IMG/VR virus record: IMGVR_UViG_3300009149_004752
Location: 1 to 36,901 of that record
Source: a virus
Direction: 5' to 3' (one strand)
DNA length: 36,901 bases
Below are positions 6,437 to 13,485 of this stretch, one piece after another (the first letter of the stretch is position 1; every line of letters begins with the position of its first letter). The position numbers were made by a program, and so were the translations under genes. The notes under the pieces were generated by a model that saw nothing but the letters and a program-made list of their open reading frames with translations, was not told where the DNA came from and made no database searches.

Positions 6437-7666
6437 ATGCGAGGATTCTTTGAGAAGACAGCCACACAGCTCCCTTATCGGTCAGAGAAGGGCATCCACT
6501 CCTGCGCTTCCTGCGGGCTCTACAAGTCTGCACACTCACCAAAGATGGAGCCATACGGAGCCTGTGAGAAGGGAATCATGGTGATTGGAGAAGGACCTGG
6601 GGAAGATGAGGACCGTAAGGGTAGGCCATGGCAAGGCAGAACGGGTCATGTCCTCCAGCAGCAGTACACACGTCTGGGCATTGACCTGTTCCGAGACTGT
6701 GTCAGCTTGAACGCAGTCAACTGCCGTCCTGTTGACAAGAAGGGCTTCAACCGACCCCCGACGGAGTATGAGATCGCATGCTGCCGTCAGAAAGTCATCG
6801 ATGCCATAGCCCAGTACAAGCCAGGAATGATAATGCTCCATGGGGCAGGTGCCCTCTCTTCTCTGATTGGCTACAAGTGGAAGAAAGACCTGGGAGGCGT
6901 GATGAAGTGGCGGGGTTGGACGATACCAGATAGAGAGTACGGAGCATGGCTCTGCCCCACATTTCACCCATCCTACGTGGAACGGCAGGAAGAGGACAAT
7001 GAGGTTGCTATCATCTGGGAGAGGGACATCCAGCGAGCCTTCGAGAAGGTGGGGAAGCCGTTTCCATTCTCAGCAGATGAGGAACAGCGAATCATCGTGT
7101 CTGAGAACCCAGGAGACGTCCTGCCGATGCTTCTCAAAGAAGCTCCGCCTTTGATGACTATTGACATTGAGACGACCGGACTGAAACCCTACAACAAAGC
7201 AGAACATCAGATCGTTGCCATCTCATTCTGTTTTGATGTCAACAGAGCCTACGCGATCCCCTTTCCCACGGAGAAGCGGCATCTGGGACTATTGAAACGC
7301 ATCCTAACGAATCCTAATGTGGGCAAGATCGCAGCCAACATGAAGCATGAGGATAACTGGCTGAATGTACTGCATGGAATCGAAGTGAACCCATGGGCGT
7401 TCGACACGATGCAGGCTGCACACGTACTGGATAACCGCCCCGGCATCACAGGTCTGAAATTCCAGGCATACATTCAGTTTGGTGTTCTGGGATATGATGA
7501 AGAGGTCAGTCCTTATCTGCACAGCTCTGCTCCCAACATACCAAATAGGATCCTGGAGTTGACCAGAGATAAGGACTCATTCAGAAGGCTATTACTCTAC
7601 TGTGGGATGGACAGCCTGCTTGAGTTCCGGCTCGCGGAGCTTCAGATGAAGGAGATGGGATGGTAA
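6437..7666 (+). CDS. Family 4 uracil-DNA glycosylase fused to a DnaQ/Pol I-type 3'-5' exonuclease
   Basis: This 409-residue protein joins two enzymes. Residues 1 to about 200 are a family 4 uracil-DNA glycosylase: CASC at 23-26 plus C96 and C115/116 fit the iron-sulfur cluster ligands, GEGPGEDED...GRPWQGRTG is the uracil-pocket motif, and FHPSY (176-180) is the second catalytic motif. Residues about 235-409 are a DEDD exonuclease: TIDIETTGL (D243, E245), NMKHED (D306) and YCGMD (Y388, D392) are the Exo I, II and III motifs. The polymerase at 9946-11349 lacks an exonuclease domain, so this protein probably supplies its proofreading and removes uracil from the template. It starts ten bases after the clamp gene. 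Confidence 0.85.
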   Translation: MRGFFEKTATQLPYRSEKGIHSCASCGLYKSAHSPKMEPYGACEKGIMVIGEGPGEDEDRKGRPWQGRTGHVLQQQYTRLGIDLFRDCVSLNAVNCRPVDKKGFNRPPTEYEIACCRQKVIDAIAQYKPGMIMLHGAGALSSLIGYKWKKDLGGVMKWRGWTIPDREYGAWLCPTFHPSYVERQEEDNEVAIIWERDIQRAFEKVGKPFPFSADEEQRIIVSENPGDVLPMLLKEAPPLMTIDIETTGLKPYNKAEHQIVAISFCFDVNRAYAIPFPTEKRHLGLLKRILTNPNVGKIAANMKHEDNWLNVLHGIEVNPWAFDTMQAAHVLDNRPGITGLKFQAYIQFGVLGYDEEVSPYLHSSAPNIPNRILELTRDKDSFRRLLLYCGMDSLLEFRLAELQMKEMGW

Positions 7667-7689: not shown

Positions 7690-8043
7690 ATGACGGAACT
7701 AGAGAAGGTCATTTATCCATTTGTGTACCCCAAGTTGAAAGGGAAGGACTGGGAACGCCGCGGGCACACAGTCTTTCTCTATCGAGTTGGAGGGATAGAG
7801 AACAGACGGCAGGTCTACGCCAAAATTGACCACGAGATACAACTTCTCTACATGCCAGACGGCAAGTACAACGCAAACTTCCTCATGCACGAGATAGAGC
7901 CGAGGTTACGAGCCGAGCGCGTCGCCTTGAGATTTGGGTTCGCAGGTGACAACTACTGGTATGTGGACCTGATAGACAAGGACGAAGCCTATGGCAATCC
8001 CGACCCCATGAAGGCAGTTGGAGAATACTTGGGGTTGAAGTGA
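7690..8043 (+). CDS. Unrecognised 117-residue protein
   Basis: Starts at ATG 7690 behind a strong GAGGAGGAGGT site and ends in a TGA overlapping the GTG of the next gene. The 117-residue product (MTELEKVIYPFVYPKLKGKDW...) is mixed alpha/beta with many charged and aromatic residues and no membrane segment or known motif. It sits inside the split polymerase region, between the exonuclease and the polymerase genes, so a DNA-related role is possible but unproven. Confidence 0.6.
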   Translation: MTELEKVIYPFVYPKLKGKDWERRGHTVFLYRVGGIENRRQVYAKIDHEIQLLYMPDGKYNANFLMHEIEPRLRAERVALRFGFAGDNYWYVDLIDKDEAYGNPDPMKAVGEYLGLK

Positions 8044-8495
8044 TAAACCAGAAGAACAGCACGGTATTGTTCGACTTCTGGGCTTGCCAACGACCTCTGA
8101 CTAGCCATTGGGGTAGTGGACAGGTTTGGGGTAGGATAGTCGAAGGGTTTGGCCAACCAGATGTGGCCTTTGGCAAGACAGATGGTATACCCGAAGGTGT
8201 GGTGGCAGTTGATTTGAATACGGGGTACGATTGGAAGAAACTACCGTTCAAAGACAATGAGTTTGAGTTTGGTTATTGGGACCCGCCATACGATCACCTC
8301 TATAAGAAAGAGGGCATGGAGATATGGCGTTGCTGCAGGCGTTTGGCGATACTCCACACGCATATCTGGCCGAGAGCGTGGCTTGTGGGGGCAAGGAGAG
8401 AAGCAATGATTGCAGTAACGATGGGGCCAATGAAGCAAATCCGCTGCCTCCAAGTACACCGAAAGGGGAGTATGCAGAGTTGCAAATTACTATGA
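8040..8495 (+). CDS. Mini DNA methyltransferase-like protein with DPPY motif
   Basis: A 151-residue protein whose GTG start overlaps the previous stop (GTGA). It carries YWDPPYDHLY (DPPY at about 81-84), the catalytic motif of N6-adenine and N4-cytosine methyltransferases, followed by RRLAILHTHIWPRAW and ARREAMIAVTMGP. No glycine-rich SAM-binding motif I (FxGxG) can be seen, so it is either a minimal family, a domain that works with a partner, or a degenerate enzyme. This compact form resembles small methyltransferase-like proteins of other phages. A second frame (8324-8521) runs through its 3' half but has no good ribosome binding site. Confidence 0.55.
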   Translation: MINQKNSTVLFDFWACQRPLTSHWGSGQVWGRIVEGFGQPDVAFGKTDGIPEGVVAVDLNTGYDWKKLPFKDNEFEFGYWDPPYDHLYKKEGMEIWRCCRRLAILHTHIWPRAWLVGARREAMIAVTMGPMKQIRCLQVHRKGSMQSCKLL

Positions 8496-8517: not shown

Positions 8518-8838
8518 GTGAAACTCATCTATGTAGCAGGGCCGTACACTGCACCAACCTCGGCTGGTGAATTCAACAACATCATGCAGGCGCGGGCCAA
8601 GGGCCTTGCACTGATTAAGAAGGGATACGCTGTGATTATCCCTCACTTGAATTCAATGTTCATGCCAGTAACACGCGGAGAAATCATGTCAGTTGACCTT
8701 GAAATCCTGAGTAGGTGTGACGCCATCTACCTGTTGAAGGACTGGCAGGATTCCAAGGGTGCCATCCAAGAGAGGCAGTTTGCCGCGTCGCATGGCCTGA
8801 CGGTTTATGTAGAAGGCGTGAATGACCCACTTGACTGA
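8518..8838 (+). CDS. DUF4406 / nucleoside 2-deoxyribosyltransferase-like protein
   Basis: The 106-residue product starts at GTG 8518 after AAAGGAATGGA. YVAGPYTAPT at the N-terminus, HLNSMF, then LSRCDAIYLLKDWQDSKGA and a final QERQFAASHGL match the nucleoside 2-deoxyribosyltransferase superfamily (DUF4406 branch): a nucleotide-binding Rossmann-like fold with a catalytic glutamate usual in the GAxxE segment. Family members exchange or hydrolyse the base of a deoxynucleoside. Here it might supply, remove or remodel a modified nucleotide, in line with the methyltransferases around it and the tailoring cassette upstream; that link is inference. Its end overlaps the start of the cytosine methyltransferase gene. 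Confidence 0.7.
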   Translation: MKLIYVAGPYTAPTSAGEFNNIMQARAKGLALIKKGYAVIIPHLNSMFMPVTRGEIMSVDLEILSRCDAIYLLKDWQDSKGAIQERQFAASHGLTVYVEGVNDPLD

Positions 8839-9949
8839 AGGAATGTTGACCCATGTTGACCTGTTTTCAGGTATTGGTGGGTTCAGCCTTGCTGCAGAAT
8901 GGGCTGGATACACGACAGTCTTATTTGTGGAGAAGGACAAGTATTGTCAGGCTGTATTACAGAAGCACTGGCCGAACGTACCCATCATAGGAGATATACG
9001 CGATGTCAATGAAGAGACTGTTGCACACGCCTACTCAGAAGGCCAACCAGATGTCTCCGTCAATGAAGGAACGGGACGCAGGCAGTTGGATGAGAACAGA
9101 GACGGAGCTGGACTCCCCACAATCGACCTTCTTACGGGCGGTTTTCCCTGTCAGCCCTTCTCTGTTGCCGGGCGGAGAGGCGGCAAGGATGACGACCGTT
9201 ACCTCTGGCCGGAGATGCTGCGTGTTATTGCACTCCTCAAGCCCCGTTGGGTGCTTGCTGAGAACGTTGCTGGAATCATCAACATGGCACTCGACGACGT
9301 GCTATCTGACCTGGAAGGCGAGGGGTACGAAACGGGGACGGTTGTACTTCCAGCTTGTGCCGTCAACGCCCCACACCGAAGGGACAGGGTGTGGATTGTG
9401 GCCCACTGCGACGACGGACTCAGCCAGCGACAGGAAGGGCAAGTACAAGCAGGGAGGAACACCGTTGACGTTGGCCATGAAGATGTGGCCGACACCGACA
9501 GTGGCAGACGCAGGACACCCGGGAAGAATCAAGTTAAAGAAGGGGCAGCAAGTCCATTTATCAGAGGCTATACGGATGCTGCCGACACCAGCAGCACGGG
9601 ACTGGAAGGATTGCGGGGACTTCACAGTACACCCAGAGAAGTCAAAGCTAGTTCACAGCATAGGGGGGGAGCTGAATCCAGATTGGGTAGAGCTCTTGAT
9701 GGGCTACCCGAAAGGTTGGACCGAGGTTGGGATGAGAGTTGGGAAAGCAAAACACCAAGGGTCTCGGAAGTCCGTAAACCAGACAGAAACAACAGGCTCA
9801 AATGCCTCGGGAACGCCATCGTTCCGCAGGTTGCGTACGAGATCTTGAAGGGGATAAGACTGACGGAGATCATGATACATGAAGGCCGTTGTGACATGAC
9901 GAAGAAAGGTGCCTTCCTCAGAAGAACCAAATATCCTACTCTACTATGA
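8822..9949 (+). CDS. dcm: DNA cytosine-C5 methyltransferase
   Basis: A 375-residue protein with the C5-cytosine methyltransferase motifs in order: DLFSGIGG (13-20, SAM binding), GGFPCQPFS with catalytic Cys110, AENV (146-149), RRDRVW (about 186-191) and the closing GNAIVPQVAYEI. A 35-residue polar insert lies between the third motif and PCQPFS. The target-recognition region (about 195-330) is rich in ADTDS-type phrases and ends in ESRLGRALDGLPERLD, a common ending in phage relatives. ATG 8822 is used, with AAGG upstream; ATG 8843 would remove seven residues. A 281-codon frame overlaps most of the gene (see 9003-9848). It probably methylates phage DNA against host restriction. The stop overlaps the polymerase start (ATGA). 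Confidence 0.85.
   Translation: MTHLTEGMLTHVDLFSGIGGFSLAAEWAGYTTVLFVEKDKYCQAVLQKHWPNVPIIGDIRDVNEETVAHAYSEGQPDVSVNEGTGRRQLDENRDGAGLPTIDLLTGGFPCQPFSVAGRRGGKDDDRYLWPEMLRVIALLKPRWVLAENVAGIINMALDDVLSDLEGEGYETGTVVLPACAVNAPHRRDRVWIVAHCDDGLSQRQEGQVQAGRNTVDVGHEDVADTDSGRRRTPGKNQVKEGAASPFIRGYTDAADTSSTGLEGLRGLHSTPREVKASSQHRGGAESRLGRALDGLPERLDRGWDESWESKTPRVSEVRKPDRNNRLKCLGNAIVPQVAYEILKGIRLTEIMIHEGRCDMTKKGAFLRRTKYPTLL
9003..9848 (+). CDS. Long overlapping frame inside dcm with methyltransferase-family phrases (tentative)
   Basis: This frame, +1 relative to dcm, is open for 281 codons without a stop. ATG 9003 is preceded by AGGAG (8989-8993) at nine-base spacing. The first 90 codons look like noise. From about 9290 onward the translation has phrases I recognise from phage cytosine methyltransferase C-termini: LTWKARGTKRGRLYFQL, STPHTEGTGCGLWPT, MWPTPTVADA and ELNPDWVELLMGYPKGW. 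The main dcm frame also has familiar family phrases over exactly the same bases. Either both frames are used, or relatives have switched frame during evolution. Expression of this frame here is unproven. Confidence 0.35.
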   Translation: MSMKRLLHTPTQKANQMSPSMKERDAGSWMRTETELDSPQSTFLRAVFPVSPSLLPGGEAARMTTVTSGRRCCVLLHSSSPVGCLLRTLLESSTWHSTTCYLTWKARGTKRGRLYFQLVPSTPHTEGTGCGLWPTATTDSASDRKGKYKQGGTPLTLAMKMWPTPTVADAGHPGRIKLKKGQQVHLSEAIRMLPTPAARDWKDCGDFTVHPEKSKLVHSIGGELNPDWVELLMGYPKGWTEVGMRVGKAKHQGSRKSVNQTETTGSNASGTPSFRRLRTRS

Positions 9950-11349
9950 ACAGGATTGAGAGAAATATGAGAACCAAAGCCACCACAGTAGATGCCTATC
10001 GATTGATTCATGAAGGCATCCTTGCACTTGCCCGAGCGGAGCGCCAAGGCTTCCGGATTGATATTGAATACTGCGAGAAGAAGCGGGAGTCACTGACCCG
10101 GAAGATTGCGCACAATCAGCAGAGAGTTGAGGACACCAAGCTCTACCGCCGGTGGGCTCACATCTATGGAACAAAGACCAACATATACAGCAACCACCAG
10201 CTTGCCCGTATCCTCTACCAGGTGTTGAAGATTGAGCCTCCGAAGATGACGGAGAAGGGCGTGGAGGGAGCCACTGATGAAGAGTCCCTAGCTCAGATTG
10301 ATATGCCCGAATTGAAGTTGATACTACAGATGCGGAAGCTGGTGAAGATTCGGGATACATACCTGGGTGCGTTCATCAGGGAATCAAACGATGGATGGAT
10401 ACACCCAGTGTTTCATCTCCATACCGTCCGTAGCTATCGCTCCAGCAGTTCAGATCCGAACTTCCAGAACATCCCGAAACGAGACGCGGAAGCGATGGAG
10501 ATCTGCCGCCGGGCCATCTACCCTCGACTGGGGCATATGTTGGTGGAGATGGACTTTGCATCCCTTGAAGTGATGATCAGTGCATGCTATCACAAGGATC
10601 CCACCATGCTCAAATACCTCCGGGATAAGCAATCAGACATGCACGCAGATATGGCAGCGCAGATATTCAAGATGGAAACCATTGACCGAAGCCTACCTTC
10701 TCATTACATACTGCGACAGGCTGCCAAGAACGGGTTTGTGTTCCCACAATTCTATGGGGATTACTACGGCAACAATGCGGTCGGCATTGCTTCCTGGGTG
10801 GAGCTGCCTCAGAGCAGATGGAAGAAGGGACAGGGCATCCTCCTCCCAGACGGGTCAAGCATATCTGACCATCTCATGATGAACGGGCTGCATTCATATA
10901 ATCAGTTCGTCGAGCATATGAAGGGTGTGGAAGAGTCCTTTTGGGGACAGCGATTCACACGATACAACCAATGGCGTAAGGCCTGGGTCAAGAAGTATCG
11001 ACGGCTGGGCTATCTGGAAATGCTCACTGGGTTCACATTCTCCGGAGTGATGAGAAAGAATGAGATTATCAACTATCCGATGCAGGGGACCGCCTTTCAT
11101 TGTCTGTTGTACACGTTCATTGAACTGGACAAAATGATGCGGGATGAAGGATGGGATTCGAGGCTTGTAGGCCAGATTCACGACTCAATCCTGATGGATG
11201 TCCATCCAGAAGAGCTCCCACGAGTTGAGCAGGCTATCCGTATGATAGTGAAGGAAATGCTGCCAGCAGCATGGAAATGGATTATCGTCCCATTGGACGT
11301 TGAGATCGAACGTTATGAGATTGACCAGCCCTGGGTCAAGAAAGGATGA
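9946..11349 (+). CDS. Family A DNA polymerase, polymerase domain only
   Basis: The 467-residue protein is a Pol I-type polymerase without the 5' nuclease and 3'-5' exonuclease domains. Palm and finger motifs are visible: RSYRSSSSDPNFQNIP where Pol I has TGRLSS...NLQNIP; motif A LVEMDFASLEV (D203); motif B RQAAKNGFVFPQFYG (R257, K261, Y270); motif C GQIHDSILMD (D413, with Ser in place of the usual Glu after HD). The second catalytic aspartate is present, so it should be active. ATG 9946 overlaps the dcm stop; ATG 9967 is an alternative. Proofreading probably comes from the UDG-exonuclease protein encoded 2.3 kb upstream, and the clamp and clamp loader complete a phage replisome. Confidence 0.85.
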   Translation: MNRIERNMRTKATTVDAYRLIHEGILALARAERQGFRIDIEYCEKKRESLTRKIAHNQQRVEDTKLYRRWAHIYGTKTNIYSNHQLARILYQVLKIEPPKMTEKGVEGATDEESLAQIDMPELKLILQMRKLVKIRDTYLGAFIRESNDGWIHPVFHLHTVRSYRSSSSDPNFQNIPKRDAEAMEICRRAIYPRLGHMLVEMDFASLEVMISACYHKDPTMLKYLRDKQSDMHADMAAQIFKMETIDRSLPSHYILRQAAKNGFVFPQFYGDYYGNNAVGIASWVELPQSRWKKGQGILLPDGSSISDHLMMNGLHSYNQFVEHMKGVEESFWGQRFTRYNQWRKAWVKKYRRLGYLEMLTGFTFSGVMRKNEIINYPMQGTAFHCLLYTFIELDKMMRDEGWDSRLVGQIHDSILMDVHPEELPRVEQAIRMIVKEMLPAAWKWIIVPLDVEIERYEIDQPWVKKG

Positions 11350-12294: not shown

Positions 12295-13485
12295 ATGAAA
12301 GCGTACTATCAAGACGGGAAGGCAAGCATATATTGTGGTACGTCTCTTGAAATGGGGTTACCTGACGGGTCTGTGCAATGTGTAGTAACGAGTCCTCCGT
12401 ATTGGGGATTGAGGAAGTATGAGGGAGAGCAGGATTCGGTATGGGGTGGCGACTCTGAATGCGAGCATGAGTGGGGGAGTGAGAATCTCCGAAAGACTGG
12501 CAGGAATGATGGGGATAGGCCACGGCTTTCTGCGGGGAGCTATTCGCCAGGGGGAGAAGCCAAGTATTACGTCTGCAACCAGACTGCCTCACAAGGCTCC
12601 TTCTGTCTCAAATGCGGTGCATGGCGCGGTGCTTTCGGCTTAGAGCCTACTCCCGAACTGTACGTCTCTCACACCGTCCTGTTCCTTCGGGAGATACGGA
12701 GGGTGTTGAAGGACGATGGGGTTGTGTTCTGGAACATCGCGGACTCGTACGCTGGCGGCGGACGCAACAGCGGCAACAGTCTTGCAAACACGAGTGCCAA
12801 GCAACTCACACAGATTCACTCTATGAGTTGCGGCAAGGCCACTGTGCCTGACGGTTTGAAGCCCAAGGATATGTGCCTGATTCCCTTTCGTGTAGCTTTG
12901 GCAGCACAGGCAGACGGCTGGTACGTGAGAAGTGACATCATATGGGCAAAGCCCAACCCGATGCCCGAGAGCGTGAGGGACAGGCCGACGAGTTCATACG
13001 AGCATATCTTCCTGTTCACGAAGTCTCAGCACTACTACTGGGGCCAAGACGCGGTAAGGGAACCTATAAATGGCAATGGTTCTCGGACATTGGGTGACCC
13101 CAAGCTGTTTAAGAGCAACCCTGTTCCTGACGACACTCGAGAATATGATAGGTCTGGCAGGTGCGGCGACCCGTTATCTGGCCGCAACCTCCGTGATGTC
13201 TGGACGATAGCAACGCAACCATCGGGCTTCAAGCACTACGCGGCGTTCCCGCTAGAGATTCCGACTCGGTGTATCAAGGCGGCAACCATGCCCGGCGACA
13301 CGGTACTCGACCCGTTCTGCGGAACGGGGCGAACACTAGAGGCTGCAATACACTTCAACCGCAAGGCCATAGGCTATGATGTGTCGGAAGCCTACTGCGA
13401 TATGGCGACAAGACGCTGCAGGGGCGAAGGAACAGCTGGAAATCAGCAAGGCACAGATGGAACAGTATATCCCAAATTGCTATAG
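12295..13485 (+). CDS. DNA N4-cytosine / N6-adenine methyltransferase (beta class)
   Basis: The 396-residue protein has the catalytic motif TSPPYWGL (32-39) near the N-terminus and the SAM-binding motif DPFCGTGRT near the C-terminus, the beta-class order. A cysteine-rich stretch (ECEHEW, then VCNQTASQGSFCLKCGAW) at about 58-110 may bind zinc and could act in target recognition. SPPY is compatible with either N4-cytosine or N6-adenine methylation. No matching restriction endonuclease gene is visible, so it is probably an orphan enzyme that protects phage DNA. It starts three bases after the clamp loader stop. Confidence 0.85.
   Translation: MKAYYQDGKASIYCGTSLEMGLPDGSVQCVVTSPPYWGLRKYEGEQDSVWGGDSECEHEWGSENLRKTGRNDGDRPRLSAGSYSPGGEAKYYVCNQTASQGSFCLKCGAWRGAFGLEPTPELYVSHTVLFLREIRRVLKDDGVVFWNIADSYAGGGRNSGNSLANTSAKQLTQIHSMSCGKATVPDGLKPKDMCLIPFRVALAAQADGWYVRSDIIWAKPNPMPESVRDRPTSSYEHIFLFTKSQHYYWGQDAVREPINGNGSRTLGDPKLFKSNPVPDDTREYDRSGRCGDPLSGRNLRDVWTIATQPSGFKHYAAFPLEIPTRCIKAATMPGDTVLDPFCGTGRTLEAAIHFNRKAIGYDVSEAYCDMATRRCRGEGTAGNQQGTDGTVYPKLL

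Follow-up and report, generated by a model that had tools for sequence, protein, structure and literature searches.

An overprinted phage C5-cytosine methyltransferase locus that probably encodes catalysis in one frame and target recognition in another

Introduction

A methyltransferase gene of an uncultured virus raises the question of how the same bases can be open, and apparently meaningful, in two reading frames. The gene lies in a virus record of 36,901 bases, here called the window and analyzed over its whole length, with all coordinates on the + strand. A sequence-only reading had recognized cytosine methyltransferase motifs in the main frame as well as in the +1 frame of the recognition region, and had offered two explanations: true dual coding, or a family in which this region switches frame in evolution to change specificity. 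Our analysis leaves practically no doubt that the dual coding is real. We consider it very probable that the two frames together encode a split C5-cytosine methyltransferase, in which alpha would be the catalytic subunit and beta, read in +1, would supply the target-recognition domain (TRD) together with motif IX.

Results

The nested reading frame

The outer gene, the inner gene and the signals upstream of the latter are arranged as follows:

8822..9949, + strand: alpha, C5-cytosine methyltransferase catalytic subunit (frame 0, 375 aa; PF00145, phrog_363)
8988..8990, + strand: TAG stop that bounds the +1 frame before beta and overlaps the Shine-Dalgarno site
8989..8993, + strand: AGGAG Shine-Dalgarno site, 9 nt spacing to ATG 9003
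9003..9848, + strand: beta, nested +1 ORF, proposed target-recognition subunit (281 aa; phrog_1008, homologues, selection in relatives)

The +1 frame inside alpha is open over 8991–9845, between bounding stops at 8988 and 9846; the coordinates, the open frame and the spacing of AGGAG to ATG 9003 are thus as first described. Besides the recognition region, the beta ORF underlies the catalytic half of alpha (motifs IV–VIII). The proposal that the +1 frame is coding held up when its translation was searched against protein families: it matched PHROG 1008 with an E-value of 8e-34 over nearly the full length (residues 3–242 on profile positions 1–281 of 329), with no match in Pfam and NCBIfam. The same PHROG is matched by all 64 aligned beta proteins, yet its annotation reads only 'DNA methyltransferase' and the overlap is unmentioned there. 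Homologues of beta are present in both viral and bacterial loci.

The open frame is longer than chance would give. The longest +1 run in the alpha gene counts 285 codons, against means of 76–83 in synonymous resamples or permutations, and neither the former (0/5000) nor the latter (0/5000) reach it. Five neighboring genes have +1 runs of 32–100 codons, and the longest run in the +2 frame of the alpha gene is 52. Because conservation of frame 0 alone can give some likeness in another frame, we also scored the +1 frame against a profile of beta proteins of 63 relatives that excluded the window, using 1000 permutations as null. The window reached 260 bits (null mean 78, maximum 126) and its recognition part alone 104.8 bits (null mean 5, maximum 34.2).

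Distribution of the methyltransferase motifs over both frames

Alpha could be divided into the following parts:

8858..8893, + strand: alpha motif I DLFSGIGGFSLA, SAM binding (sequence; alignment with M.HhaI)
9137..9163, + strand: alpha motif IV GGFPCQPFS, catalytic Cys (alignment with M.HhaI)
9254..9274, + strand: alpha motif VI LAENVAG (alignment with M.HhaI)
9368..9403, + strand: alpha motif VIII region APHRRDRVWIVA (alignment with M.HhaI)
9404..9670, + strand: alpha frame-0 linker over the module array, containing 'ADTDS' and shadowing beta (identity and codon-position rates in relatives)
9671..9721, + strand: dual-conserved stretch, AESRLGRALDGLPERLD in frame 0 and LNPDWVELLMGYPKGWT in +1 (both frames conserved in relatives)
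9794..9844, + strand: alpha motif X RLKCLGNAIVPQVAYEI (frame 0)

The PF00145 motifs I, IV (PCQ), VI (ENV) and VIII are all found in one frame of the window alpha, and the post-TRD motif X of the GNA/GNS..P type is present in the same frame as LGNAIVPQ within 9794–9844. Alpha matches phrog_363 with an E-value of 1.4e-78, while its PF00145 match (E 2.8e-43) covers profile positions 2–165 of 324 only. This differs from a single-chain layout, as the match ends at position 165 and the motif-IX-like segment is found in +1 only. In single-chain C5-methyltransferases from the same genomes or phylum, motif IX is in frame 0, such as LTPRECARLMGFDDDF. An AlphaFold model of alpha computed without alignment was useless (pLDDT 35).

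Selection in relatives

Substitutions were examined in 57 independent pairs of DNA-aligned relatives, the window itself being without a close DNA relative, and differences were counted by frame-0 codon position. For positions 1, 2 and 3, respectively, they amount to 0.160, 0.103 and 0.388 before the overlap, 0.145, 0.077 and 0.219 in the overlap beneath the catalytic motifs, 0.285, 0.108 and 0.099 in the recognition region of the overlap, and 0.093, 0.053 and 0.319 after it. Position 3 differs less than position 1 in 55 of the 57 pairs in the recognition region, and more than position 1 in the two alpha-only flanks (44/46 and 34/36 pairs). Position 1 of frame 0 falls on the wobble position of +1 codons, so that the recognition region changes in the manner of a +1 gene. 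The comparison of codon positions in both frames thus places the constraint of the recognition region on +1 and that of the flanks on alpha. Beta therefore evolves as a real, conserved protein, and purifying selection acts on its relatives.

The protein sequences point in the same direction. Identity among relatives in the module region is 0.83 in +1 vs 0.64 in frame 0, with +1 higher in 48 of 53 pairs, and frame-0 codon position 1 over the module array changes at a near-wobble rate. The 'ADTDS' phrases of the main frame are thus largely a shadow: the pattern xATGTGGCCnACnCCnACn translates to MWPTPT in +1 and to a VADTD-like string in frame 0. The motif IX stretch has identities of 0.90 (+1) and 0.81 (frame 0) and codon-position rates of 0.173/0.025/0.095; 'ESRLGRALDGLPERLD / LNPDWVELLMGYPKGW' is the only stretch conserved in both frames and represents strict dual coding. 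The original impression of family motifs in both frames consequently stands for the motif IX stretch, but not for 'ADTDS', which is poorly conserved and mirrors the +1 MWPTPT.

Signals for independent expression of beta

Across relatives, the +1 constraint sets in near the usual beta start, from about 60 bases before to 60 bases after the PCQ codon. A strict Shine-Dalgarno sequence precedes the first +1 ATG or GTG in 31 of 69 representatives vs 95 of 1662 other +1/+2 starts (p 6e-19). The record of Paenibacillus phage Redbud annotates the same nested gene as 'g50 internal gene'; the other phage records examined annotate alpha alone. With homology to PHROG 1008, a start signal of its own and purifying selection in relatives, true dual coding is the one of the two initial explanations that we retain.

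Modular anatomy of beta

Beta consists of an N-terminal core, a module array and a terminal helix:

9189..9371, + strand: beta N-terminal core MTTVTSGRR...YLTWKARGTKRGRLYFQLVPSTP (overprinted on alpha motifs IV–VIII; family alignment)
9396..9482, + strand: beta module 1 LWPTATTDSASDRKGKYKQGGTPLTLAMK (77.8% identity over 27 aa to a module of locus L059; also a module of L216)
9483..9575, + strand: beta module 2 MWPTPTVADAGHPGRIKLKKGQQVHLSEAIR (related to a module of locus L039, 52%)
9576..9665, + strand: beta module 3 MLPTPAARDWKDCGDFTVHPEKSKLVHSIG (PTP-ARDxKD module type, seen in many loci)
9666..9731, + strand: beta motif-IX-like segment GELNPDWVELLMGYPKGWTEVG (register of motif IX in single-chain C5-methyltransferases)

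The order is the same across the family: the core is followed by one to about five modules (three in the window) and by LNPxWVEWLMGYPxGWT. The modules open with W/L-P-T-P and mostly measure 33–45 residues (length quartiles 33, 39 and 45 aa); their boundaries were set by a regular expression and are approximate, with some arrays over- or under-split. They behave as exchangeable cassettes. Indeed, module 1 of the window is 78% identical to modules of a phage (L059) and of a Bacteroidetes bacterium (L216), although the core identity with L059 is just 34%; 383 pairs of modules reach 75% identity or more while their cores, by approximate identities, stay below 55%; and near-identical cores differ by whole modules. 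The exchangeable WPTP modules suggest tandem target-recognition cassettes.

Structural comparisons were less informative. AlphaFold with 64 sequences gave a weak model of beta (pLDDT 59), of which a hairpin of the N-terminal core is the best-predicted part. Comparing this model to folds in the PDB gave no meaningful match, and a profile search of whole beta in the PDB nothing significant; for the core, neither a known relative nor a solved homologue was found in the PDB profile search. The identification of the last helix as canonical motif IX is weak and is based on pattern and register: local hhalign gave P 0.0014 with a probability of 18% only, the full-profile comparison with four single-chain enzymes no match, and a PDB profile search with the motif IX segment no methyltransferase.

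In three loci (L132:1474-2604, L157 and L159) beta passes the alpha stop by more than 100 aa into an extra in-frame domain, which opens with another PTP-like segment. The L132 extension has no match in Pfam above cut-off.

Distribution and constancy of the frame relation

Viral loci were collected by alpha while ignoring beta, and nearly all of the 80 loci found have a long +1 run. Using the beta alignment to scan 84,980 genomes of bacteria and archaea yielded another 80 loci from, by record titles, about a dozen phyla, 75 of them clearly nested. In 217 of the 218 loci where both motifs were found, the motif-IX-like helix lies in +1 and motif X in the frame of alpha; in the one frame+0 case (L214) both frames are broken by an indel. 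None of the loci examined has its WPTP/motif IX region intact in the frame of catalysis, and beta was seen only alongside alpha in viral and bacterial loci alike. Among single-chain controls, 1 of 17 has a +1 run above permutations at p<0.05.

Three further cases deserve mention. One bacterial locus (L187:2745-4044) has a short alpha that stops after motif VIII and a beta whose single frame includes the modules as well as motifs IX and X. One of the controls (L285) has a full-length C5-methyltransferase match and a +1 run of 165 codons (0/300 permutations), in which no nested motif was found. A single Roseovarius assembly (OX638333.1) carries five nested methyltransferases with equal match scores (L224, L225, L227, L228 and L229), suggesting a multiplying mobile element or prophage.

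Neighboring genes in the window

The methyltransferase and some small genes sit between two parts of a family-A DNA polymerase (6437–7666 and 9946–11349), which appears split over two proteins: one combines uracil-DNA-glycosylase and 3'-5' exonuclease, the other has the polymerase domain. A small ORF at 8040–8495 has the DPPY motif typical of amino-methyltransferases, without a Pfam match. A second DNA methyltransferase, of the N6/N4 type (PF01555), is encoded at 12295–13485; its match spans residues 27–372 for a profile of 221 positions and therefore implies a large insertion.

Discussion

Based on the motif layout of both frames, we propose the following organization. Frame 0 would give alpha, which carries motifs I–VIII and X for SAM binding and catalysis, and an internal ribosome-binding site before ATG 9003 would allow translation of beta in +1 as an N-terminal core, three WPTP modules and a motif-IX-like helix. 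Most likely, beta binds to alpha and thereby would bring the TRD and motif IX that are absent from the frame of alpha. The resulting methylase probably methylates one or more short sequences in the phage DNA and would thereby probably shield this DNA against host restriction.

Several other organizations have to be weighed against this model. A single chain might be made by programmed frameshifting, with a +1 shift behind motif VIII that brings the TRD and motif IX into the chain and a shift back for motif X. Such a product would restore the order I–VIII / TRD–IX / X in one chain, but it needs two opposite shifts and would not use +1 under motifs IV–VIII, to which the +1 constraint reaches upstream; moreover, Shine-Dalgarno sequences are strongly enriched at the first +1 start, and beta of L132, L157 and L159 outruns the end of alpha. 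Frameshifting is needless for explaining the locus and we judge it very unlikely. Somewhat less improbable, though still unlikely, is that beta is a separate overprinted protein dispensable for methylation, e.g., with an anti-restriction or regulatory role. The weakly supported homology to canonical motif IX and the core without known relative or solved homologue would fit such a protein. Against it, motif IX is missing from the frame of alpha across the family and in frame in single-chain relatives, beta was never found apart from alpha in the loci examined, and M.EcoHK31I consists of two polypeptides with the motif split proposed here (PMC3404938).

That the main frame alone is translated, with the open +1 frame as a by-product of codon bias and of a conserved main-frame protein, has very little probability left. 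Conservation of frame 0 by itself does yield part of the beta profile score, as the null mean of 78 bits illustrates, but the real values are far above the null maxima and single-chain enzymes have no comparable +1 excess; the substitutions of the recognition region, tracking +1 and not frame 0, already contradict this explanation. Least credible of all is the second proposal of the sequence-only reading, a recognition region that changes frame in evolution and so alters specificity. The bacterial locus with a short alpha and motif X in the beta frame could be cited in its favor, yet the frame relation is identical in 217 of 218 loci, the WPTP/motif IX region is intact in the catalytic frame in none of the loci examined, and the variation concerns which modules +1 contains.

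The split enzyme that we favor resembles several known systems. In M.EcoHK31I the beta gene is located inside the alpha gene in a different frame, as beta is encoded within alpha in another frame in the window. This two-polypeptide C5-methyltransferase (YGGCCR), compared here by motif layout, has motifs I–VIII and X in the larger subunit and motif IX in the smaller (PMC3404938), a split like the one proposed for alpha and beta. Its predicted TRD was placed in alpha (PMC3404938), whereas in the window family beta carries the sequence that is conserved at the TRD position; unlike M.EcoHK31I, the window beta has a module array, and no restriction partner, as for EcoHK31I, was seen in the window. 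M.AquI (CYCGRG) also has two subunits with motifs I–VIII in the larger one, but its smaller subunit carries both motifs IX and X (PMC3404938), whereas motif X of the window is in the frame of alpha. Within our set only L187 has an AquI-like layout, and the relation of the two split types may be visible there.

Similar to the exchangeable modules described here, which lie between motifs VIII and IX, the methyltransferases of the Bacillus phages SPR, phi3T and H2 have tandem TRDs that provide several specificities (PMC8936443), in their case within one coding sequence, while the WPTP modules with their putative specificity are in a nested second frame. Given these tandem TRDs, the beta array may likewise give several DNA specificities. 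The ShiLan domain, an HNH endonuclease hidden in a phage methylase gene, is likewise a second protein encoded out of frame (PMC11855218); it is a mobile homing element, whereas beta is a constant part of an enzyme family.

The arrangement, found in hundreds of genomes of phages and bacteria, matches a known, little-studied kind, which appears much more widespread and more modular than the accessible literature describes; in open-licence papers we found the nested family described only as mentions of EcoHK31I. We lean, by a modest degree, toward seeing here a very widespread class of phage and bacterial C5-methyltransferases with an overprinted array of recognition cassettes, multispecific and rapidly re-targetable by the exchange of modules of about 30–45 aa. 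Modules would then be gained, lost and swapped between viruses and bacteria within the overprinted frame, the primary frame there being reduced to a stop-free shadow linker.

These considerations have consequences for annotation. Many records annotate one frame of the nested locus only, so that the presumed recognition half is missing or mislabelled, and the annotated alpha protein shows a shadow at the expected TRD position. If the proposed organization is true, the specificities of a large group of methyltransferases from phages and bacteria have to be predicted from the +1 frame. Overprinting would then be a stable modular design and not a rare viral curiosity, and the module array would form a testable code in which each cassette can be set against a methylated motif.
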